A DNA stretch of 64,000 nt from Paenibacillus bovis. Lineage in GTDB: Bacteria; Bacillota; Bacilli; Paenibacillales; Paenibacillaceae. The position numbers and the translations under genes are program-made. Below, in pieces: positions 45,496 through 56,229 of this stretch; position 1 is the first letter of the stretch; every line of letters begins with the position of its first letter. Below the pieces are notes generated by a model. The model was not told the origin of the DNA, made no database searches, and worked only from the letters and a program-made list of their open reading frames with translations. The stretch covers positions 2,783,501 to 2,847,500 of the forward strand of contig NZ_CP013023.1 in NCBI RefSeq assembly GCF_001421015.2. The letters run 5' to 3'.

Positions 45496-48400
45496 ATGTT
45501 AATCAATCAATCGACAGATCCTTTGCTGGCTCGTTTTGCTGAGGCATGCTCGGCAGAGTATTCTCTTTCCGTAGATCGGAAGCAGTCTATTCTGGATTAT
45601 ATCAGTGGACAGACAGACGAATTCCCGGCGATGATGCATAATTCCAACAGTTATGGTTACCGCACTATGGAACTGCTGCAGAAAATAGGTCAAAAGGAAC
45701 GGGGAGATTCTTTTTACCGAGCAGCAGCGGTAGTTATTCTGACGAGTAGCCAGTGGCAGCAGCGATATTATATGGACCCGTTCAGTCTGTGTATGGAAGA
45801 ATATATCAAGCCGACCAGTCTGAGTGCCAAAGGCAGCAATGCTGTACATAGAAGAGAAAAAGGACTGGAAGCGCTTCGTATGCTGCATAAATATGCAGGC
45901 AGCGAAATTATCGAAGGCGTTATCCAGCGGCAAATGAAACAGGCAGCCCTAAACAGAAAGTCGCCTGCCAAAGGGGAAAATATGATTGGCAGACTCGATA
46001 CGATTGTGGAGCTGCTGGAACTGATGAAGCTGTATGGCGAATTGGAACCCGAGTTCGTAAATACAGTGACAGAGGAGTTGCCGCCGCTGCTGCAGGCAGT
46101 ACTGACCGGCAATGAAGAGCAGTTGAGACTGGAATTGAAACAGATTGTGGAACCGATAGTACTGGGAAAAATGCCGATGAATGATTATTTGTCCGCTCTG
46201 GATCTGGAACCGGCCTTTCTGGAAAGCCAGCAGACAAAAATACGCGAGAACGCTTTTGGCGGTATGGTTATACCCGAGGAAAAAAATATTAGCCGGGAAC
46301 AATTTTATCAGGGAATGATGCAGGTACATGCTGCCTTTTTCTATGTATTGAACAGCCATGGAGACAAGACGCAGCTGCTGGAACAGCCTGGAGCCGAAGG
46401 CACATCGCTGCTAGAAGCCATTCGTCATCTGTATACCGTGCTGCCAATCGAGGTAAGTTATTATCTCACCTCACTGGAGAGACGTTCTACCGATATGCAG
46501 ATGTTTGAAGGCATTGTGCCGCTGGAAGAACCATACGATCTGATTACAATGGTACAGCGTGAATTGAATTATTATATGCCCTCCTGGAATACGATCCGAG
46601 CCGAGCTGCTCGCCCAGCCGGATCGTACACGTCGTGGTATAGAGATTGCCAGACAGCCTATAGTCAAAGCAATCATGTACAAAGTGCTGGCTGAACAGAA
46701 TATTATCGCAGCCGAAGATCACTATCTGGAACAGCTGGTTCTGGATGTACTGACGAATAAAATCTACAGTTATACCGCAGGACGCAAGCTGGGTCGCTAT
46801 CTGACCGGTGAATTCGAACTGGAGACTGTACTCAAGGATCAACAGGTAAGCTCTATCTGGAATGGAACCGGCCATAATCCCAAAGGCCGTGTATTGCTGA
46901 CAGCGGTCACCATGCTGCCGATAGAGTCTGATTTGTTCCGCCGGTTTATTATAATTGCCTGCCAGCCGGAATGGATGCTGGGTTCATTATCCCTGCTGTA
47001 TCGTTCTCCGTTTTTCGATGGACAGCGTGTGCTAGAAGTATATGAGAATGATCCGCAGATAGATACCGAGAATATGCTGAAAAACATGCTGATGCTAAAT
47101 GGACACAGCAATTATTATTATATTTCTATCCCGGATCCGGTCTATGCAGATCTTGTCCGAAGCCATATCACGGAGAGTCTGGCTTATTATAACGAGCTGC
47201 CTACCGATGGCAGAGCCGCTGTACTGGACACTTTATTTGCAGAGCGTGAGCAATTGAGTCCGGATCAGTTGTCCGAAGCTATTCGTCTGGGACTGGGCGA
47301 CTCGTCCAAACGGATCAATGCGCTCTCCCGTGTACAATTTTCCCGTACAGCAGATCATGAACTGTATATGAATATTTACCAAAAAGAGAAAAAAGCCGAT
47401 GTGAAGGAAATGATACTGAATGCGCTACGCAGTAGCGATCACGCGGAGCAAGCGTATACCACACTGCTAAAACAGGAAAAATCCGATACTTTCCGTACGC
47501 TGATTCAGGTATTTATGGATACACTCGGACAAAGCCCCGAGCAGGCGCATGCTGCACTGGCTGCCGCGAGCGATACCAAAAAGCGCAGCCGTCTGGACTG
47601 GTTGCCTATCGAACGTCTACCGCAGCTGCAGCATCAGGACGGGCATCCGCTCAATGATGAAATCAAGCGCTATATGCTGCTTCAGTCGCTTGATTACACA
47701 ACAGCTCCTAATGAACGACTTCAGGAAATCAAGCAGTACGCTACTGCCGCATCATTGGCAGATTTTGCTCTGGAGCTGGTGCAGATATGGATTCAGCATG
47801 GAGCAGCAGCCAAGGAAAAATGGGTATTGTATCTCGCCTCCCTGTATGGTGATCGCCGTCTAATGGATCTGCTGGGTCACCAGATCAAAGAGTGGACCGA
47901 AAGCAGCCGTGGGGCTATTGCAGCCGAGACGGTCAAAGTACTGGCTTATCTGAACGATGTCTCGGCACTGATGCTGATCGACCGTTTGTCCCGTACAATC
48001 AAAAATCGCCAGGTGAAGACTGCTGCTACCGAGGCGCTGCAGCTGGCTGCAGAAAATATGAATCTTACAGCGGAGCAGCTGGCCGACCGCTTGATCACGA
48101 CGCTCGGATTTGATAGAAAGGGTCAGCAGCAGCTTAGCTACGGGGAACGTTCTTTTACCGTCAAAGTAAACAGTGATCTGCAGCTGACAGTAATCAATGA
48201 AGAAAATGGTAAAACAGTCAAAAGTATGCCTGCACCTTCCCAAAAAGATGATCCCGAGCTGGCCAAGCAATCCAAAGCACGATTTACACAAATTAAAAAA
48301 GATCTCAAAACCATGGTTACTCTGCAAGCGCAGCGTCTGGAAGAGTCACTTTCCAAACGTCGTTTGTGGACACAAAATGAATGGTCGGATCTATTTGTAG

Positions 48401-49038
48401 ATAATGTGATTATGCGCCAGTTTGCTGTCGGATTGATCTGGGGCATTTATAAGGATGGACAGCTGACCGAGACATTCCGTTATATGGATGATGGTACATT
48501 CAATACCGTAGAGGAAGAAGAGTACGAACCCCAGCCGGATGCCGCTATTGGTCTGGTTCATCCACTGGAAATGACTACACAGCAGATTGCAGACTGGAAA
48601 AGTCAGCTGGAAGATTATGAGATCAGTCAGCCATTTACCCAGCTGGAGCGTCAAATCTATGTCGTAGAAGAAGAACAGCGGCAACTCAAGGAGTGGACAG
48701 GACTGCCGCAGGATGAATTTTCTCCAACCGCTTTTCCAAAAGCACTGGAAAAGTACGGCTGGTACAAAGGTATGGCCGAAGATGGAGGCGTATACTATGA
48801 TCTGTACAAAGATTACGGTGATCTGGTAGCACAGCTGCATTTTAATGGTACCAGCATTTCTTATTATGAAGGCATGGAAGATATTATGCTGGAGACACTC
48901 AGTTTCTACAAACAAAATAGTTCGAGCCGCTATCATTATTATGATCCGACCCAGGCGAGACCGCTGGGCAATATCCCAAGCAGGGTATTTAGTGAAACGG
49001 TATACGATATTTTGCGCGCTGCTGGACAAGTGGACTGA
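45496..49038 (+). CDS. Giant DUF4132 protein (YehI/MolR-like)
   Basis: A 1180-residue cytoplasmic protein, mostly helical and suggestive of HEAT-like repeats over the first 850 residues. The C-terminal DUF4132 region begins about residue 890 (RKGQQQLSYGERSFTVKVNS) and contains LFVDNVIMRQFAVGLIWGIY and IGLVHPLEMTTQQIADWKSQ. GAAGGAGG precedes the ATG. It matches E. coli YehI, found next to yehL-M-P-Q. The biochemical role is unknown; size and repeats suggest a scaffold. The gene is 59 bases after the vWA gene and intact. Confidence 0.85.
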   Translation: MLINQSTDPLLARFAEACSAEYSLSVDRKQSILDYISGQTDEFPAMMHNSNSYGYRTMELLQKIGQKERGDSFYRAAAVVILTSSQWQQRYYMDPFSLCMEEYIKPTSLSAKGSNAVHRREKGLEALRMLHKYAGSEIIEGVIQRQMKQAALNRKSPAKGENMIGRLDTIVELLELMKLYGELEPEFVNTVTEELPPLLQAVLTGNEEQLRLELKQIVEPIVLGKMPMNDYLSALDLEPAFLESQQTKIRENAFGGMVIPEEKNISREQFYQGMMQVHAAFFYVLNSHGDKTQLLEQPGAEGTSLLEAIRHLYTVLPIEVSYYLTSLERRSTDMQMFEGIVPLEEPYDLITMVQRELNYYMPSWNTIRAELLAQPDRTRRGIEIARQPIVKAIMYKVLAEQNIIAAEDHYLEQLVLDVLTNKIYSYTAGRKLGRYLTGEFELETVLKDQQVSSIWNGTGHNPKGRVLLTAVTMLPIESDLFRRFIIIACQPEWMLGSLSLLYRSPFFDGQRVLEVYENDPQIDTENMLKNMLMLNGHSNYYYISIPDPVYADLVRSHITESLAYYNELPTDGRAAVLDTLFAEREQLSPDQLSEAIRLGLGDSSKRINALSRVQFSRTADHELYMNIYQKEKKADVKEMILNALRSSDHAEQAYTTLLKQEKSDTFRTLIQVFMDTLGQSPEQAHAALAAASDTKKRSRLDWLPIERLPQLQHQDGHPLNDEIKRYMLLQSLDYTTAPNERLQEIKQYATAASLADFALELVQIWIQHGAAAKEKWVLYLASLYGDRRLMDLLGHQIKEWTESSRGAIAAETVKVLAYLNDVSALMLIDRLSRTIKNRQVKTAATEALQLAAENMNLTAEQLADRLITTLGFDRKGQQQLSYGERSFTVKVNSDLQLTVINEENGKTVKSMPAPSQKDDPELAKQSKARFTQIKKDLKTMVTLQAQRLEESLSKRRLWTQNEWSDLFVDNVIMRQFAVGLIWGIYKDGQLTETFRYMDDGTFNTVEEEEYEPQPDAAIGLVHPLEMTTQQIADWKSQLEDYEISQPFTQLERQIYVVEEEQRQLKEWTGLPQDEFSPTAFPKALEKYGWYKGMAEDGGVYYDLYKDYGDLVAQLHFNGTSISYYEGMEDIMLETLSFYKQNSSSRYHYYDPTQARPLGNIPSRVFSETVYDILRAAGQVD

Positions 49039-49112
49039 GCTGGCCCAGCAATCTATGAACAGTCTATATCATTGGCTACCAAGACCGGCAAGCTGGGAAA
49101 AGGAGGAACGGC

Positions 49113-50822
49113 ATGCAGCCATTTCCCATACGATTTCGTCAATTTATCGCTGAATGCACCGAGGATTATCTGATTCGGTATACCAATAAAGGCCTGTATA
49201 ACCGTGCGCTCAAAGATATGGACAAAGGCATTACTGCCGACTACACATGGACAGAGCAGGAACGGGTACAGTGCACACTGAGTGATGGCACAATATGTAC
49301 ACTGGCTGATACGATAGAGCAGTCTGTATGCAGCTGTCCTTCCGATAAGATCTGTCGCCATATTTTGCTGGCGATTCTATATGAACAGCATTATTCAATA
49401 TTGGGAACACAGCAAGAAGATAGCGAACAAACGGCAGAACAGGAACAGAAGCTGTCTCCTGAGCATTCCAACCATTCCGAACAACCGGAGCAGGGATTTG
49501 AATGGATGATGGACATTCCTTTGTCTGTTCTGCTTCATTCTTATACGACGGCACAGATAGCCGAAGTCGATTTCAGGCTCAGCATCAAAGAAAAGATTCA
49601 TGTTACGCAAGATACACTGCTGACCGTGAGAATGGAACTCCAGCAGATCGAGGTATCCTTTACCCGTGATCCCGATCTGACCAAAGCACTCTGCAATGTA
49701 CGCGATAACCGTGTATCGCTATACAAGTTGGAAGCGATCCTGCGTTATCGTGCACTGCATGGTCTCGAAGAACAGCAGCTGCTGGAAGAATCGAGTTATC
49801 CGGCACCGACATCCTCCAGCGCTGTGGCAGAATGCCGCAAGCTGCTGACCGATATTAGTCAGATCGGCTTGGCACGGCTGCCGCAGACAGTAATGGCACG
49901 ACTGGAGGCACTCGCGATTACTGCGCGAAGCGAAGAGTTACCGAATCTGGAGCGGGCGCTGCGCAGTATCCGGGGAGAGCTGGAGCTTTTCTTTGCCCGT
50001 CATGTTCGTTTTAATATGAACAAATTAATGAATAGATTAACCGAGACTTATCTGATGCTGGAAGCCTGGGAACAGGATCTAACCGCCAGTCAGCGAGCAC
50101 AGCTGGTCGGCAGCTTCCGCAGCCGTTATTATGAACGGGCACAGCTTCAATTATATGCGTTGGGTGCCGAGCCGTGGGAGACCCGATCGGGTTACAGAGG
50201 TATCACGTATTACCTGTACTGCCCTGATGATGAAGAGATGTACACGTATACAGATGCCAGACCCATCTATTACGAAAGCAATACTTTTCATTATGATGCC
50301 CAGTATAACGGGCGTTCTCCATGGCGAGCGAGCCTGTCCATGAAGCAGCTGGCTGCAGGACAGTGGAATTTCCGGAATATCAAAATCAATCGGGATCGCC
50401 GAATATCTTCAGCAGAAGGAACCCGGATCGAGAGGCTAGACCGAGTACCGGTCGAACAGATAAATTTTGGCCATTATCAAGTGGAAGATCCGGAATGTAT
50501 TCAGCAGCACACCGGGGTGGCTTTATTTGGCTATAAAAAGCCTCGTATCCTGCTGCTGACACTGGATTCGATTCAACATACTGTATTCGATCCTTCTTTA
50601 CAGCATTTGCTGATTCATGCCACACTGCAAGGCGGCAGCCTGGTCACGCTGGTTATTCCGTACCATCAGGAATGGAAGCAGACGATTCGCAAGCTGGAAA
50701 AGACTGCCCCTGAGCAAATGTCCAGTAAGATGAAAGTGCTCGTACGTGCCGATGGACAGCATCTGTATCCGATCAGCTTCCTCAAAGACACATCTATACA
50801 ACATCTGAAGCTGGATGAATAA
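49113..50822 (+). CDS. SWIM zinc-finger protein (YehQ-like)
   Basis: A 569-residue protein. The SWIM finger is C73-S-C75-x5-C81-R-H83, the CxCxnCxH pattern that binds zinc and often DNA or RNA. An acidic Glu/Gln linker at about 105-130 precedes a large helical/beta C-terminal part without a known domain. AAAAGGAGG lies before the ATG. E. coli YehQ is a SWIM protein in the same gene group. It is the best nucleic-acid-binding candidate in the operon. Confidence 0.85.
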   Translation: MQPFPIRFRQFIAECTEDYLIRYTNKGLYNRALKDMDKGITADYTWTEQERVQCTLSDGTICTLADTIEQSVCSCPSDKICRHILLAILYEQHYSILGTQQEDSEQTAEQEQKLSPEHSNHSEQPEQGFEWMMDIPLSVLLHSYTTAQIAEVDFRLSIKEKIHVTQDTLLTVRMELQQIEVSFTRDPDLTKALCNVRDNRVSLYKLEAILRYRALHGLEEQQLLEESSYPAPTSSSAVAECRKLLTDISQIGLARLPQTVMARLEALAITARSEELPNLERALRSIRGELELFFARHVRFNMNKLMNRLTETYLMLEAWEQDLTASQRAQLVGSFRSRYYERAQLQLYALGAEPWETRSGYRGITYYLYCPDDEEMYTYTDARPIYYESNTFHYDAQYNGRSPWRASLSMKQLAAGQWNFRNIKINRDRRISSAEGTRIERLDRVPVEQINFGHYQVEDPECIQQHTGVALFGYKKPRILLLTLDSIQHTVFDPSLQHLLIHATLQGGSLVTLVIPYHQEWKQTIRKLEKTAPEQMSSKMKVLVRADGQHLYPISFLKDTSIQHLKLDE

Positions 50823-51331: not shown

Positions 51332-52153
51332 TCAATCTATATCATGCCTATCCGCATTCTGACCATACCGTGCCAAGGCTCGCGTCGCAGTGTCATGCAT
51401 CCGTCGTTTTAGATGGTCGCCCTCGATTACACGAACGCGCTTGCCGAGGAAACGGAGGCGATTTAGTACATATTCACTTTCATTGCCGGCAAAGTTCAGA
51501 TAGATATAATACGTTTGCTCTTGCTCCACAAATTCGACCCGTTTGTCAAAGCAGGAAAAAGCATGCAAAATGCGTGTCAATTCCATATTGTACATCGGTA
51601 GCAGTTGGATCACCGCTTCCTGCCGTTCTACACTGCAGATGTCCTGCATACGCTGACAGATTGGCTCATATTGGTCTGGGGGTAGCGGTATTTCGGTGAT
51701 CGATTGAATATGAACTAGTCTCGTCGTCATCGCCGCTCGGGTGCGCATATTGTACCAGAGCAGATACCATTCACGCCGTGCCATAGAAAATTCCAGCTTC
51801 CATGGTACTCCATACTGGGAGAGGATAAGCTGTCCATGTTTGTTCAGCCGCCGGATCTCCATCGATTGACGACGGCGCATAATAAGACGAAGTGGACGCA
51901 GCAGGGGAGAATAGGTCTGACCAGCAGCAGAGCCTGCCTTTTCTGTCAGGGCTTGCTGCAGTTGGGGAATCTCTTCTTCAAGCAGACAATCTCCAATTTT
52001 ATGTAAAGTCTGCAGATCCAGTGCGTGGGCAGCAGCAGGCTGCTCCAGCATCATTTTCAGCCAAGCTCTTTCCTGGGAGGTGAGTGTATAGGTAGCCGTT
52101 TCTTCTAGCCTGGAAGCCAGCTGGTAGCTGAATATTTTCTCAAAAAGATTCAT
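51332..52153 (-). CDS. WYL-domain protein (second of a pair)
   Basis: A 273-residue protein. A helical N-terminal part (residues 1-75, LTSQERAWLKMMLEQP) lacks a clear helix-turn-helix. The WYL domain covers about 90-170, with SMARREWYLLWYNMRTRAAM at the core. A WCX-like extension ends the protein. It overlaps the upstream WYL gene by 14 bases, so they are translated together and probably form a heteromer, as in PafB-PafC pairs. It lies convergent to the MoxR operon. Confidence 0.85.
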   Translation of the reverse strand: MNLFEKIFSYQLASRLEETATYTLTSQERAWLKMMLEQPAAAHALDLQTLHKIGDCLLEEEIPQLQQALTEKAGSAAGQTYSPLLRPLRLIMRRRQSMEIRRLNKHGQLILSQYGVPWKLEFSMARREWYLLWYNMRTRAAMTTRLVHIQSITEIPLPPDQYEPICQRMQDICSVERQEAVIQLLPMYNMELTRILHAFSCFDKRVEFVEQEQTYYIYLNFAGNESEYVLNRLRFLGKRVRVIEGDHLKRRMHDTATRALARYGQNADRHDID

Positions 52154-53447
52154 AGTCGTTCATCAGTTCCTTCCATTCCTCGATCAGGGATTCCCGCAAT
52201 GCAGCAGGCTCCAGCACTTCACAGCTCGAACCAAAGCTTCGCAGCCACGGGCGAATTTCGGTATACCCGTTTACCTTGATTTCATAAATAAAGCTGTGTG
52301 CATCTTCTTCTACAATCTGCCCCCATTGTCCCTGCATACGTACCCGTTCCTGGATAAAGTCATTTTGTGGCGGCGCCGGTTTGAAAAAGCGTGCCCGTAC
52401 CGTAACTGTTCTGCCGGTATCGACCAGCCAGCTGTAGCGGGTATGCTCATCCAGCTTGGCTGCATACTGTTCACATAACCGTGCATCGATCTCTTGTTCA
52501 GCTGTAATATCCACGATGCCATCCATCCGGTATTTAACAATGCGTCCGCCCGGTGTAGTACCCAGCAGATACCAACGACCATACTGATGATCATACACTA
52601 CCCGCAGCGGCAGCATATGCTGACGACGGGGCTCATTGTCCCGGCTGAACAGTGGATTCGTATTCTGTGCCGTATAACTGCGCTTGCGGCTGGGAGAGTA
52701 GTACTGAAAAGAAATAAACCGATGCTCACGAATCAGGCGCAGCAGCGTATACAGATGCGCTTCATCGAGAATACGCGCGTCATAATGATAACGGTAGCTG
52801 AATGGCTCCAGCCACTCTTCCTGCCAGCTGTCATCCGGAGATTCGGAGACCGTTGCCTTGATCGCCTTTTTGAGATTATCGCGCAGCAGATAGCCCTGAA
52901 CAGATGGAATCTGTGTATTTGCCATAATATCCACGAATTCATATAGTTCAATCAATTCTTCCCTGGTCAGACAATCGGTTAGGTCATTATTCAGCCGGTA
53001 GCGATAAGGACGACCGCTCGGTTCCCGGCGAATCACACCGATTTCCTCCAGATAACGCAGATCGGAACGAATCGTTTTCTCATCCGGCGGAGCAGCAGCA
53101 CTGTCTATCAGCTGCTCATCGCATACATCCAGCAAAGCGGCTGCAGTCATCGGCTCCTGCTTGAGTGCAGTGAGGATAATCGGCAGTCGGCGGCTCTCGG
53201 ATTCTTTCATCGATTTGGCCCGATACAGAAACAGCAGCACCGGTTCAGCCGTATCCGCATAGTTATACCGGAACAGGTCGGCAAAGTCGGCATCTCCATT
53301 CACTTCTTTCAGTCGGCGGATCGTTTTATCAAATGTATGTACAGAGATACCGAGTCGGCCAGCAAACTGCTGCCGATCATAATTGCCCCCGGTCAGCGCC
53401 AGCAGGCGCAGGAACTGGATTTCTTTGTCAAAGCTTTCTTTAGCCAT
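52140..53447 (-). CDS. HTH plus WYL-domain regulator (first of a pair)
   Basis: A 435-residue regulator. Residues about 10-55 are a winged helix (FAGRLGISVHTFDKTIRRLK). A second helix-turn-helix-like segment lies at about 115-165 (DEKTIRSDLRYLEEIGVIRR). The WYL domain at about 255-330 has VVYDHQYGRWYLLGTTPGGR. WYL proteins sense nucleic-acid or nucleotide ligands in several defence and DNA-damage systems. ATG 53447 with GGAGG 11 bases upstream is preferred. It lies between the MoxR operon and the Y RNA/rsr unit, so either or both may be its targets. Confidence 0.87.
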   Translation of the reverse strand: MAKESFDKEIQFLRLLALTGGNYDRQQFAGRLGISVHTFDKTIRRLKEVNGDADFADLFRYNYADTAEPVLLFLYRAKSMKESESRRLPIILTALKQEPMTAAALLDVCDEQLIDSAAAPPDEKTIRSDLRYLEEIGVIRREPSGRPYRYRLNNDLTDCLTREELIELYEFVDIMANTQIPSVQGYLLRDNLKKAIKATVSESPDDSWQEEWLEPFSYRYHYDARILDEAHLYTLLRLIREHRFISFQYYSPSRKRSYTAQNTNPLFSRDNEPRRQHMLPLRVVYDHQYGRWYLLGTTPGGRIVKYRMDGIVDITAEQEIDARLCEQYAAKLDEHTRYSWLVDTGRTVTVRARFFKPAPPQNDFIQERVRMQGQWGQIVEEDAHSFIYEIKVNGYTEIRPWLRSFGSSCEVLEPAALRESLIEEWKELMNDYESF

Positions 53448-53528
53448 AATAGGGTCAACCTCCATCAATCTACAGTCAATCTATATCGTCTCTATCTCCA
53501 GACGTAATTATTCGCAAAATGTTTTCTT

Positions 53529-53556: not shown

Positions 53557-53766
53557 ACCGGTCGGCAAAAGGAAAAGAGGCTATCGTTTCTTTTTTTCTA
53601 TAAAGTCGCCATACTTTTACCCTGTTCGCTGGTACCCAAAAATGAGAAGATAAGCACATCAAAGGGAACATGACAGCTAACATCAACCGGCCTATCACTG
53701 CAATCCAAAGCCACAAGCTACAGAAAAAACAGTGTGTCGCCAGCCGATGATCAAGCTGCTGTCCCT

Positions 53767-53907
53767 CATACCCGAGGCGCCTGAAAGGGTTACTTCGACT
53801 GTTAATCGACAGGTCGCCGGTTCGAGTCCGGCTTCCGCCGTTCATGGCGGAATAGCTCAGTAGGTAGAGCGGTATAAAACCTTTTCACCTTAATTTCCTC
53901 GGGTATG
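53767..53907 (+). ncRNA. YrlA-type Y RNA 1: circularly permuted tRNA mimic
   Basis: A 141-base RNA closed by a perfect 11-bp stem, CATACCCGAGG (53767-53777) with CCTCGGGTATG (53897-53907). An asymmetric internal loop and a second stem follow, GAAAGGGTT (53783-53791) with AACCTTTTC (53878-53886, one G-U). Inside is a tRNA in permuted order: an anticodon-like arm TCGA-CTGTTAA-TCGA (53795-53809), a T arm GCCGG-TTCGAGT-CCGGC (53816-53832), acceptor strand TTCCGCC (53833-53839), loop GTTCAT, acceptor strand GGCGGAA (53846-53852), TA, and D arm GCTC-AGTAGGTA-GAGC (53855-53870). The acceptor end is loop-capped, so it cannot be aminoacylated. It lies upstream of rsr, the expected Y RNA partner. Expression is inferred. 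Confidence 0.85.
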
Positions 53908-53940
53908 TTTATTTATTATCGATCCGCGTCATAATTTGAG

Positions 53941-54018
53941 AAGTAGAAGTAGAAGTAGAAGTAGAAGTAGAAGTAGAAGTAGAAGTAGAAGTAGAAGTAG
54001 AAGTAGAAGTAGAAGTAG
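53941..54018. repeat. AAGTAG hexamer, 13 tandem copies
   Basis: Thirteen exact AAGTAG units (78 bases) begin 33 bases after Y RNA 1. No protein frame uses them. The purine-rich strand is unlikely to fold. Exact identity implies recent expansion or active homogenisation. Confidence 0.95.
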
Positions 54019-54361
54019 AACTTGCAAAATAAACTTAAACCAAAAGACATTCCAAACTAAAAGCTACACATGTATACAAAAGATCGTTTCCCAAGTAAAC
54101 ACGTACTATTGAAACGCAAAAATCACACAACACAATAGACAATTAGAACAAACAAGCAAATAAAATAGCACAAAACCAAACACTCTTAATCAGCAACTAA
54201 CCCAGTAAAATACCATAATAAACACTGCACTCTAATAGCTTTACTATATTCATAAACAATCAGATAAGCTTTATTAACTCCACCAAGTAACAAAAATGGA
54301 TCCCGTCCCGAACTACTACACAACTACAAGGTTGTGCAGATCAGCAGTAAAGAAGCAACCT
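54019..54361. other. AT-rich spacer between the small RNAs
   Basis: About 340 bases with many CA/AA-rich runs and no protein frame. Near its end are overlapping small hairpins, CACAAC/GTTGTG (54319-54336) and GTGCAG/CTGCAC, that could form alternative structures. No clear promoter was found, so the downstream RNAs may be read through from upstream. Confidence 0.4.
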
Positions 54362-54492
54362 GCACGGAGCGGAGGAAAGAGAATTCTACCAACGACCGAC
54401 ATTTAAGAAGGGAGATCGACCGCTGAAGGCGGTGGTTCAAGATCTCCTTTCTTAACCGGAGGGAGTGGTAGAATCTCTTTTCGAAGCGGTGC
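54362..54492 (+). ncRNA. Large hairpin RNA between the two Y RNAs
   Basis: A 131-base rod: GCAC/GTGC at the base, TTCTACCA (54384-54391) with TGGTAGAA (54466-54473), an asymmetric internal loop, then TTAAGAAGGGAGATC (54403-54417) with GATCTCCTTTCTTAA (54441-54455, one G-U) and an apical ACCGC/GCGGT hairpin. It contains a T-loop-like GGTTCAA (54434-54440) and then AGTGGTAGA (54464-54472), which is identical to the D-arm string of Y RNA 2, in the same permuted order. It may be a diverged third Y RNA or another structured RNA. A function is not shown. Confidence 0.55.
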
Positions 54493-54530
54493 TTCCAAAA
54501 GCACACGTACAACCACCCAACGTCAATTCC

Positions 54531-54653
54531 CGATCCGAGGCGCCCAAAAAGGTTCCTTCGCCTGTCGCCGGTTCGACTCCAGCTTCCGCTATGTGTGTGC
54601 TGCGGAATAGCTCAGTGGTAGAGCAGCCCTTTTTTCTTTTTTTCCTCGGATCG
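54531..54653 (+). ncRNA. YrlA-type Y RNA 2: circularly permuted tRNA mimic
   Basis: A 123-base RNA closed by a perfect 10-bp stem, CGATCCGAGG (54531-54540) with CCTCGGATCG (54644-54653). An internal loop (CGCCC against a T-rich strand) and AAAAAGG/CCTTTTT follow. CTG (54562-54564) can pair with CAG after the D arm, so the Y stem stacks where an anticodon stem would be. The T arm is GCCGG-TTCGACT-CCAGC (54567-54583, one C-A mismatch). The acceptor stem TTCCGC/GCGGAA is capped by a 12-base loop. TA and the D arm GCTC-AGTGGTA-GAGC (54610-54624) complete it. It shares CCGAGGCGCC and the tRNA-like core with Y RNA 1 and ends 76 bases before rsr. Confidence 0.85.
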
Positions 54654-54729
54654 TACATATAAGCAGCATAGGAAACATCTTTCTGATTCTGCCTTTAAAA
54701 TACATACCAAGCACAAGGAGGACCTCATT

Positions 54730-56229
54730 ATGAGTCATGCCAAAAAATTATTCGGTAGCGGAATCGCCGCCACCACCAACAAAGAAGGATTTGTCGCTTA
54801 TAACCGCAGCATTGAAGAGGAGTACCTCCAGCTGCTGCTAACCAATACATTTAGCAACACCTTTTATGCGAACAGTCAGGAACTGCTATCCGAAGCACAA
54901 TCGATTCATCAGGGCATGGTGGAGTTGAACCCTGAATTTATGGCCAAAGCACTGGTATTCGCACGCAACGAAGGTTTTATGCGATTGCAGCCGCTGTATG
55001 GACTGGCTGTGCTATCAGGAGCCTGGCCGGATCTTTTTGCTTCTGTTTTTCAGCAGGTGGTTCGTATTCCTTCCGATCTGGCCGATTTTCTGACTATTCT
55101 GCGAGGAATGCGCCGGGGTCAGGGAGGCCGGGCAGTCAAGCGTCAGGTGGCGCTGTTCCTCGGCCGAACTACCGAGTACTGGGCAATGAAATATAACGGT
55201 CGTGGACGCGGATTCAGTCTGGGCGATGCGATCGCTACGGCACATCCCAAGCCTACTACTCTTCGGCAGCAGGCGCTTTACCGCTATTTGCGTGGTCAGG
55301 AGACTAATCTGGCGCTGCTTCCGCAGATTAAAGCTCTGGAAAATCTCAAAAAAGCTACCGATGATAACGAGCGTATTCGCTTGATTCAAGAAGGCAAGCT
55401 GCCTTATGAAGTCGTGACAAGTACCATCACGCCAACACGAGGCATCTGGCAAACCCTGATGAAGGAAATGCCTGCTTTTGCGCTGCTGCGTCATCTGAAT
55501 ACGCTTAGTCGGCATGATGTATTCAGCCGGAAAAAGAATCTGAAATATGTACAGGAACGTCTGACAGACGCCGAAGCACTGCGCAAAGCCAAAATTCTGC
55601 CGTTTCGTTTTGCAAAAGCTTTTGCAGAAGTAGACCATCCGGATCTGCGGGATACACTTCGCGAAGCGGTAGATTTAAGCTTTGACAATCTGCCGGATGT
55701 GCCGGGTCGTACCGCTATTTTTCTCGATATCTCCGGATCGATGACAGGTGAATATTTGCAGACCGGATCGATTTTTGCGCTGGCTTTATATAAAAAGACA
55801 GATGGTAACTCACTGTTCTGGCTGTTCGATACACTGGTAGAGGACGCCAAACCTTCGCGCCGGGACAGCATTATGAGTCAGGCAGAGCGTATTCATGCAC
55901 GTGGTGGAACTGATACGGGTGCGCCGGTACGTCGCCTAATCGAGCTAGGAGAAAAAGTGGATCAGATCATTATGATTACCGACGAACAGCAGAATACCGG
56001 TAGCCCTTTTTACCGGGAACTTGGAGAATACCGCCGCAAAATCAATCCCCAGGCCAAAGCTTTTATCGTGGATATCGCACCGTATCAGAGCAGTATGGTA
56101 CCGCCTGAGGACAACAATACGTTTTATATTTATGGCTGGAGCGATACGGTGTTGTCTTTTATCGCCCAATCGGTACAGGGGTATCAGGGAATGGTACAGC
56201 ATGTCGAGGCAACAGTACTGGAGGATTAA
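54730..56229 (+). CDS. rsr: Ro60 orthologue Rsr (TROVE plus vWA domains)
   Basis: A 499-residue ring-shaped RNA-binding protein. The TROVE domain covers about 20-320, a HEAT-like ring that binds single-stranded RNA ends in the hole and Y RNA outside. The vWA-like domain at about 325-490 has an intact MIDAS motif D333-I-S335-G-S337, GGTDTGAPV and ITDEQQN. In Deinococcus and Salmonella, Rsr works with Y RNAs and PNPase in RNA degradation and stress survival. CAAGGAGG lies before the ATG. Two tRNA-mimic Y RNAs precede it. No rtcB/rtcA genes are next to it, unlike Salmonella. Confidence 0.95.
   Translation: MSHAKKLFGSGIAATTNKEGFVAYNRSIEEEYLQLLLTNTFSNTFYANSQELLSEAQSIHQGMVELNPEFMAKALVFARNEGFMRLQPLYGLAVLSGAWPDLFASVFQQVVRIPSDLADFLTILRGMRRGQGGRAVKRQVALFLGRTTEYWAMKYNGRGRGFSLGDAIATAHPKPTTLRQQALYRYLRGQETNLALLPQIKALENLKKATDDNERIRLIQEGKLPYEVVTSTITPTRGIWQTLMKEMPAFALLRHLNTLSRHDVFSRKKNLKYVQERLTDAEALRKAKILPFRFAKAFAEVDHPDLRDTLREAVDLSFDNLPDVPGRTAIFLDISGSMTGEYLQTGSIFALALYKKTDGNSLFWLFDTLVEDAKPSRRDSIMSQAERIHARGGTDTGAPVRRLIELGEKVDQIIMITDEQQNTGSPFYRELGEYRRKINPQAKAFIVDIAPYQSSMVPPEDNNTFYIYGWSDTVLSFIAQSVQGYQGMVQHVEATVLED

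Follow-up and report, generated by a model that had tools for sequence, protein, structure and literature searches.

A predicted Y RNA built around a whole circularly permuted tRNA beside the Ro60 gene of Paenibacillus bovis, and its counterparts in bacteria and phages

The rsr locus and the anatomy of its two predicted Y RNAs

The window, i.e., the whole stretch of 64,000 nucleotides of Paenibacillus bovis DNA that was analysed, contains rsr, the gene of a Ro60 orthologue (54730..56229, + strand). Its product matches the Pfam domains TROVE and vWA_Ro60 above their cut-offs and has 95% and 90% identity to the Rsr proteins of P. dauci and P. wulumuqiensis, respectively. Two predicted Y RNAs are located upstream of rsr on the same strand. 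The first, Y1 (53768..53906), is predicted to contain a complete circularly permuted tRNA; the second, Y2 (54531..54653), is of the three-arm YrlA type, and the anticodon arm is absent from it. Y2 ends 76 nt before the start codon of rsr. This spacing had been given in an earlier, sequence-only reading of the locus, and the two domains of the product bear out the naming of the gene as Ro60.

On the other side of the Y RNAs, the gene of a WYL/WCX protein (52140-53468, − strand; assigned by Pfam) reads away from them. It is adjacent to a second gene of the − strand (51332-52153), whose product has no Pfam match. Both genes of this pair (51332..53468) adjoin rsr in 19 of 24 genome-contig loci, and they are likely to be regulators of the rsr/Y RNA locus. 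Beyond the WYL gene, the stretch 45496-50822 encodes a DUF4132 protein and then a protein of 569 aa. The latter has no Pfam match, shows a SWIM-like CxC..CxxH stretch by eye and, within 5-kb flanks, adjoins rsr in no relatives other than the two closest of the 24 compared.

Shortly 3' of Y1, the hexamer AGAAGT is repeated in 13.7 perfect copies (53939-54020), and the length of this repeat is likely to be variable. A long, stable hairpin without a Y motif (54356-54502; z −7.7) is found between Y1 and Y2. Among the loci then compared, just two had a sequence 83-85% alike, those of P. dauci (in two pieces) and of P. wulumuqiensis. As a candidate for a third Y RNA, the hairpin is doubtful: it has no GAGGCG motif and was seen in these two nearest relatives alone.

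In both Y1 and Y2, the T arm, the capped acceptor stem and the D arm follow one another in permuted order on an inner stem and an outer stem of ten pairs. The sequence-only reading had proposed this order together with the closing and inner stems, and all of these were recovered from the sequence; the sequence claimed as common to both copies was found to be CCGAGGCGCC.

The outer stem of Y1 is formed by AUACCCGAGG (53768..53777) and CCUCGGGUAU (53897..53906), and six of its ten pairs are changed on both sides in an alignment of 39 RNAs described below. The inner stem pairs 53782..53791 with 53878-53887 and was obtained both by RNA folding and as helix 2 of the alignment. Between the inner stem and the T arm stands ACUUCGA-CUGUUAA-UCGACAGGUC. 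As aligned, it contains an anticodon arm, UUCGA-CUGUUAA-UCGAC (53794..53810), which corresponds to tRNA positions 27-43 and has the 7-nt loop CUGUUAA with the anticodon GUU at 53801-53803. The outermost position of this arm, U27-C43, is a mismatch that is kept in most aligned rows. Next come the T arm GCCGG-UUCGAGU-CCGGC (53816..53832), paired in 100% of the alignment cells, and the acceptor stem of seven pairs capped by the 6-nt loop GUUCAU (53833..53852), with all seven pairs changed on both sides. U8 and A9 (53853-53854) lead to the D arm (53855..53870), in which A14, G15, G18, G19, U20 and A21 are conserved. The tRNA numbering fits Y1 position by position, the ring being interrupted between 26 and 27 at its junction with the Y stems. 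The tRNA body has a variable loop of 5 nt; G46, C48, U8, A14, G15, G18, G19 and A21 are in place, and the D and T loops contain the target bases of tRNA-type modifications (D, pseudouridine).

In Y2, the sequence gives the outer stem CGAUCCGAGG/CCUCGGAUCG (54531-54540 with 54644-54653), a T arm with one C-A mismatch in its stem (54567..54583), the capped acceptor stem UUCCGC/GCGGAA (54584..54607) and the D arm (54610..54624). Y2 was scored as lacking the anticodon arm because only UUCGCCUGUCGCC stands at the place where Y1 carries it. The anatomy of three arms described earlier therefore holds for both elements and is incomplete for Y1, which has the fourth arm. Judged by this anatomy, Y1 is a predicted whole four-arm circularly permuted tRNA on Y stems, and Y2 is the predicted three-arm form.

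YrlA (RF02553), known from Salmonella and others, shares with these RNAs the linkage to Ro60, the two-part stem and the permuted order of T arm, capped acceptor stem and D arm. However, the segment from the inner stem to the T arm is just CUAcgccuGUu in RF02553, too short for an anticodon hairpin, whereas in Y1 it holds a complete arm. Y RNAs with three arms, e.g., Y2, have the locus and the outer-stem motif in common with Y1 but not the anticodon arm. Similar to Y1, tmRNA is a tRNA mimic with a special task; it differs in having no anticodon arm and in carrying a tag reading frame. Permuted tRNA genes of red algae and archaea have reversed tRNA halves, as in Y1. Unlike them, Y1 is opened at 26/27, has a stem shared with Ro60-linked Y RNAs and has a capped acceptor end. 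The permuted tRNA genes of C. merolae are described as open at 20/21, 37/38, 50/51 or 59/60, with a bulge-helix-bulge motif (PMC3978253). Neither the gene-finder match nor the free acceptor end of a canonical tRNA gene was found for Y1.

Model searches and comparative evidence

As the sequence-only reading had expected of a conventional tRNA scan, ARAGORN reported no tRNA anywhere in the window. Rfam at the gathering cut-offs gave no match in the window; for YrlA at its Rfam cut-off, this was also the case in 12 further loci. The tmRNA model gave no match in the window at the gathering cut-off, nor at E 1 in 53600-54800. When an E-value limit was applied instead, RF02553 matched Y1 at 38.6 bits (E 1.1e-6) and Y2 at 35.7 bits (E 8.1e-6), the E-values being for 1.2 kb searched. 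A YrlA covariance model, named earlier as a check, thus matches both elements and places both below its cut-off of 69 bits. Y1 and Y2 are variants of the YrlA class and not members of RF02553 as modelled. At the anticodon arm of Y1, the Rfam tRNA model found a partial tRNA of 25.7 bits versus a cut-off of 29. Folding, likewise proposed as a check, showed Y1 to be strongly stable (z −5.3; none of 200 shuffles as stable), and Y2 folded weakly better than its shuffles (z −1.8; 9 of 200 as stable).

The alignment was made from 39 distinct type-A RNAs (i.e., those with the permuted tRNA) of Paenibacillaceae loci, Y1 included. Identical sequences, duplicate loci of one genome and L007, whose outer stem was unmatched by the script, were left out, as were the three-arm copies (Y2 of the window and of L002) and L005's second RNA. 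One row, L010, had escaped the script and was entered manually. No full type-A match was obtained for L013, L035 and L040. With the Y1 structure imposed on the 39 RNAs, 96.2% of cells are paired, and 20 of the 39 pairs are changed on both sides. The covariation in relatives that the YrlA-type reading would call for was present, at 0.361 versus 0.152 when shuffled and at most 0.105 when slid. The outer and inner stems (helices 1 and 2) are paired in 93.8% and 92.9% of cells, respectively, with changes on both sides, the figure for helix 2 counting the first nine pairs of the inner stem. A second alignment, A3, extends to other families and comprises 64 matches, 61 of them distinct. Of its 39 pairs, 28 are changed on both sides; having been fitted to the model, A3 is biased in the model's favour.

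The anticodon helix is paired in 97.4% of cells in the first alignment and in 96.6% in A3, and the four inner pairs of the arm form in 38 of the 39 RNAs. Within the loop, U33 is conserved in 38, U36 in 36, A37 in 37 and A38 in 38 of the 39 RNAs, Y1 included. Positions 34 (U 24, G 11, C 3) and 35 (U 27, C 10, G 1) are variable, with one gap each. The loops are CUUUUAA in 16 RNAs, CUGUUAA in nine and CUUCUAA in seven; CUCUUAA, CUGCUAA, CUUCCAA, CUGUAGA, AUCGUAA and CUCCUAC occur once each, and in L020 the arm is deleted. Pair 31-39 is AU in 40, CG in 15, GC in one and UA in one of the 57 scored rows of A3 and unpaired in none; compensatory change in the anticodon arm is limited to one pair in this alignment. 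The arm is lost or altered in Y2, L002 Y2, L020, L080, L095 and the second RNA of L005. A parent tRNA was also sought for Y1. The host tRNA-Asn(GUU) was the best candidate at 78%, but Lys, Gly and Met reached 76%, so no parent is claimed.

Distribution in bacteria and phages

A covariance model, R1, was built from the 39 type-A RNAs, Y1 included and Y2 not; it scores Y1 at 142.1 bits (by construction) and Y2 at 79.0 bits. No third copy was found when the host genome was searched with R1. The next matches reach at most 42.9 bits, and those checked lie in native tRNA gene clusters. In the family, 76 of 394 genomes have R1 matches (E <= 1e-11). Among the 197 genomes searched for both the RNA and rsr, 47 of the 52 rsr-matching genomes have the RNA, and no genome has the RNA without an rsr match. 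Two of these 47 have a damaged-looking rsr (two pieces in G007, two stops in G036). The five rsr-matching genomes without the RNA are G021, G098 and G130, with rsr pieces only, G178, in which most of the type-A copy is lost (L013), and G148. The rsr match in 47 of 47 RNA-positive genomes, the sub-threshold RF02553 matches and the covariation support the YrlA-type reading made earlier from the sequence.

A motif search found at least two Y modules in 33 of 48 loci and three in 16 of 48. The earlier claim of two diverged copies thus holds as to their number; the copies of the window differ in kind, and several modules per locus are usual. The two copies might gate Rsr in two ways, as that reading had suggested. 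By eye, the Y RNAs fall into three kinds: type A contains the permuted tRNA, type B has no tRNA parts, and type C has a T arm alone. Types B and C sit between type A and rsr, e.g., in L009, L011 and L033.

In a second family of the order, L067 has the loop CGAUUAC, in which U33 is lost. In family f23, the RNA was found in 6 of 39 genomes, with the loops CUUUUAA in L065 and CUUCUAA in L068 and a lost arm in L080; L101-L103 also belong here. A phylum sample of 398 genomes gave eight positives, four of them outside the class. The latter are L092, with the loop UUGUUAA and one stem mismatch, beside an ORF named rsr-like from its sequence; the clostridial L093, with the loop CUGUUAA, beside an ORF named RtcB-like in the same way; L094, with CUUGAAAA of 8 nt; and L095, which is not anticodon-like. 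Two closer scans outside the class found the RNA in 1 of 82 and 2 of 37 genomes. In L093:652-3066, the RNA lies, by eye, between the RtcB-like ORF and broken Ro60-like frames, along with two more Y-like elements.

The E limit of the phylum sample was set at 1e-12 because looser matches were judged to be tandem real tRNAs; weaker true copies may be missed at this limit. In an R1 scan of the class, 396 of 398 genomes gave matches at E <= 0.01 among those listed; the matches at model positions 31-104 were rejected as tandem real tRNAs by their extent. Full-length matches of 53-60 bits in family f7 (L081-L086) were also judged to be tandem real tRNAs, the alignments of L081 and L082 being inspected.

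Viral copies were sampled from IMG/VR with a pattern of ACTTCG, the T loop and TAGCTCA that left the anticodon loop free; it matched at least 120 stretches, with 80 among the matches listed. These 80 loci contain 61 sites with a complementary acceptor stem (at least six of seven pairs). A hairpin with a 7-nt loop, allowing for a shifted position and requiring at least three Watson-Crick pairs, is present at 46 of the 61 sites and absent from 15. All 46 have U33 with UA, GG or AA at 36-37 and 42 also have A38, counts that are inflated by relatedness among the viral sites. Strict tRNA geometry is found at 34 of the 61 sites, with U33 in all 34 and UA in 26, GG in seven and AA in one at 36-37. 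In 300 composition shuffles of the same viral segments, the first six bases being kept, the hairpin occurred 16.9 times on average (maximum 29), U33 4.6 times (11), the loop rule 0.9 times (4) and the rule with A38 0.17 times (2).

In 39 viral RNAs with exact spacing, where pairing was not required, pair 31-39 is CG in 16, AU in 15, GC in four, UA in three and other in one; U33 is present in 37, and positions 36-37 are UA in 25, GG in 12, GA in one and AA in one. UA and GG at 36-37 are linked to the t6A37 and m1G37 enzymes. The viral UA and GG loops carry many anticodons, including UGG, CAG, CUG, GUG, CAU, GUU and UGU.

Of the ORFs beside the viral copies, ten were tested, and all ten match TROVE above the cut-off; each also has a vWA-type match, some of these below the vWA cut-off. 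They were chosen, all loci pooled, from 68 strict-arm viral sites as ORFs of at least 300 codons within about 500 nt. All ten loci come from a first viral pattern, which fixes the loop as CTNNTAA and was excluded from the loop statistics. With the Rsr of the window as query, no relatives were found in the viral contigs, and the viral Ro60 genes were found from the RNA side.

Twelve regions around Ro60 genes of named phages were also considered, and a clear anticodon-type loop was found in five. These are CcrColossus (AUCUGGA and CUGUUAA; its Y RNAs, about six, form an array), CcrPW (AUUAGGA, CUGUUAA), Olaya (CUGUUAA), Kikimora (CUGCUAA) and RHph_Y65 (AUUCCAA, and AUUGUAA with a stem mismatch). 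Neville (AUGCUAA) was added as a sixth by eye. The six regions of crAss001, Mvi-JY20, Atuin, phiKT1024, HGTV-1 and Mx1 showed no clear anticodon-type loop. The GenBank tRNA-Gln of CcrColossus (L421:1036-1103) and the GenBank tRNA-Ser of Kikimora (L425:1623-1697) each overlap an anticodon-bearing Y RNA.

The CcrColossus array (L421:855-1821) consists of about six tandem Y RNAs before the Ro60 gene (five R2 matches and one by eye), and some of them have D arms like those of class II tRNAs (GGCGGAATTGGTAGACGCA). In crAss001, L422:3403-3546 contains a tRNA whose parts are in the usual order (46.6 bits) and whose D arm is followed by an insert of about 80 nt. By eye, the insert is like a capped Y stem with its strands swapped, and this element is possibly the same composite opened at the other end.

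Sequence comparison supports the permuted four-arm anatomy, the conserved, covarying stems, the loop rules (U33; U36/A37 or G36/G37; A38) and the lack of the arm in Y2, together with a linkage to Ro60 genes that extends from bacteria to phages.

Possible role of the anticodon arm

Y1 joins a predicted Rsr-binding stem to a permuted tRNA, and the chances appear about even that, through its anticodon arm, Y1 acts as a full tRNA decoy towards enzymes reading this loop in tRNAs. Such a role would mean that Y1 and Y2 are transcribed, that Rsr holds their outer stem and that the tRNA end of Y1 is recognised by tRNA-acting enzymes. The likely readers would be position-37 modification enzymes and stress- or phage-triggered anticodon nucleases. 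Y1 could then act as a competitor of genuine tRNAs or, within the Rsr particle, signal that anticodon loops are being cut. The arm-less Y2 would offer acceptor, T and D mimicry only, and a real anticodon arm would extend the mimicry of YrlA to loop-reading enzymes.

In the account of PMC8394870, Rsr occupies the Y stem, PNPase contacts the tRNA-like end, and the tRNA-like domain is described with D, T and acceptor arms. Salmonella YrlA is reported to be uncut by an SOS-induced anticodon nuclease and was proposed as a competitive inhibitor of that nuclease (PMC7790460). Anticodon nucleases are described as reading the loop sequence and t6A37, and PrrC as favoured by t6A37 together with a modified wobble base (PMC13191261). 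According to PMC11455837, phage tRNAs escape such nucleases through changes in the anticodon stem-loop. In contrast to these altered stem-loops, the loops of the viral Y RNAs keep to the canonical rules, as would be expected of bait. The variation at positions 34-35 does not point to one fixed nuclease target.

The main rival to an Rsr-held decoy or sensor is structural mimicry alone, which we consider rather unlikely. The arm would then complete the tRNA fold and serve tRNA-like modification and stability or a better docking of PNPase, without any decoy or sensor role. This would agree with the fact that the conserved features are those needed for the tRNA fold and for position-37 modification while the anticodon drifts, and also with YrlA being modified by tRNA enzymes and having PNPase bound at its tRNA-like end (PMC8394870). 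However, the arm-less Y2 in the same locus argues that the arm is not required for a Y RNA, and the variety of loops within one phage array suggests that the anticodon end is important.

A further explanation, held to be improbable, is that the arm is a leftover of tRNA ancestry and that another fold forms, the loop having no role. It is favoured by single-sequence folding. The minimum-energy fold of RNAfold holds the anticodon arm in only 3 of the 39 RNAs and omits it in 36; in Y1, the arm has a pair probability of 0.01 and is outcompeted by a rival GAC/GUC hairpin. Pairs 33-51 and 35-49 of this hairpin are possible in 38 of 39 RNAs and pair 34-50 in 34, but the hairpin fails at 36-47 (possible in 20 of 39) and 37-46 (12 of 39). 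In 21 of the 39 RNAs, RNAfold fails to predict the T arm as well, although that arm is paired throughout the alignment; its verdict therefore carries little weight here, and more trust was placed in the comparative signal. Single-sequence folding was therefore set aside as arbiter of the anticodon arm and counted as evidence against it. The tertiary contacts and modifications of tRNAs lie outside RNAfold. A leftover arm also fits poorly with the adherence of bases 33, 36-37 and 38 to tRNA rules, which is seen in bacteria as well as among diverse viral copies and far exceeds that of shuffles, and with pair 31-39 taking all four Watson-Crick types.

It is very improbable that Y1 is a permuted tRNA gene. 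In this case, its acceptor end would be released by RNase P together with a 3' nuclease, and 26 would be ligated to 27, e.g., by RtcB, to yield a tRNA that works in translation. The complete four-arm body with a valid anticodon, the two host RtcB genes (G000:C1:1804664-1805962 and 1731951-1733066, far from rsr) and the RtcB-like ORF adjoining L093 would fit. However, the acceptor caps between the 7-pair strands, 1-7 nt long in the 39 RNAs, are of 1-3 nt in eight and a GCAA tetraloop in three, which leaves a discriminator base and leader little space, if any. In addition, tRNA-Asn genes are already present in the host, and the 26/27 opening lies within a long stem and is not a junction listed for C. 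merolae.

The decoy or sensor reading can be extended, more tentatively, to Ro60 particles of bacteria and phages in general. These particles may carry complete permuted tRNAs as decoys, sometimes in tandem arrays, with different anticodons, which would bait or report anticodon nucleases and other loop readers and would form a layer of defence or counter-defence. Its members would lie below the Rfam YrlA cut-off, some of the phage ones being annotated as tRNA genes. No prior description of a complete anticodon arm with tRNA loop rules was found in a search that stopped short of the primary YrlA papers, so an earlier report is possible. Tandem tRNA-mimic Y RNAs are known already, and the complete anticodon arm is apparently new, with some uncertainty.

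At the Rfam cut-off, the YrlA model misses the four-arm form, and two phage 'tRNA' annotations overlap Y RNAs. As the form with the anticodon arm occurs both in Paenibacillus and in phages that can be cultured, it allows a direct test of why Ro60 carries a tRNA look-alike.
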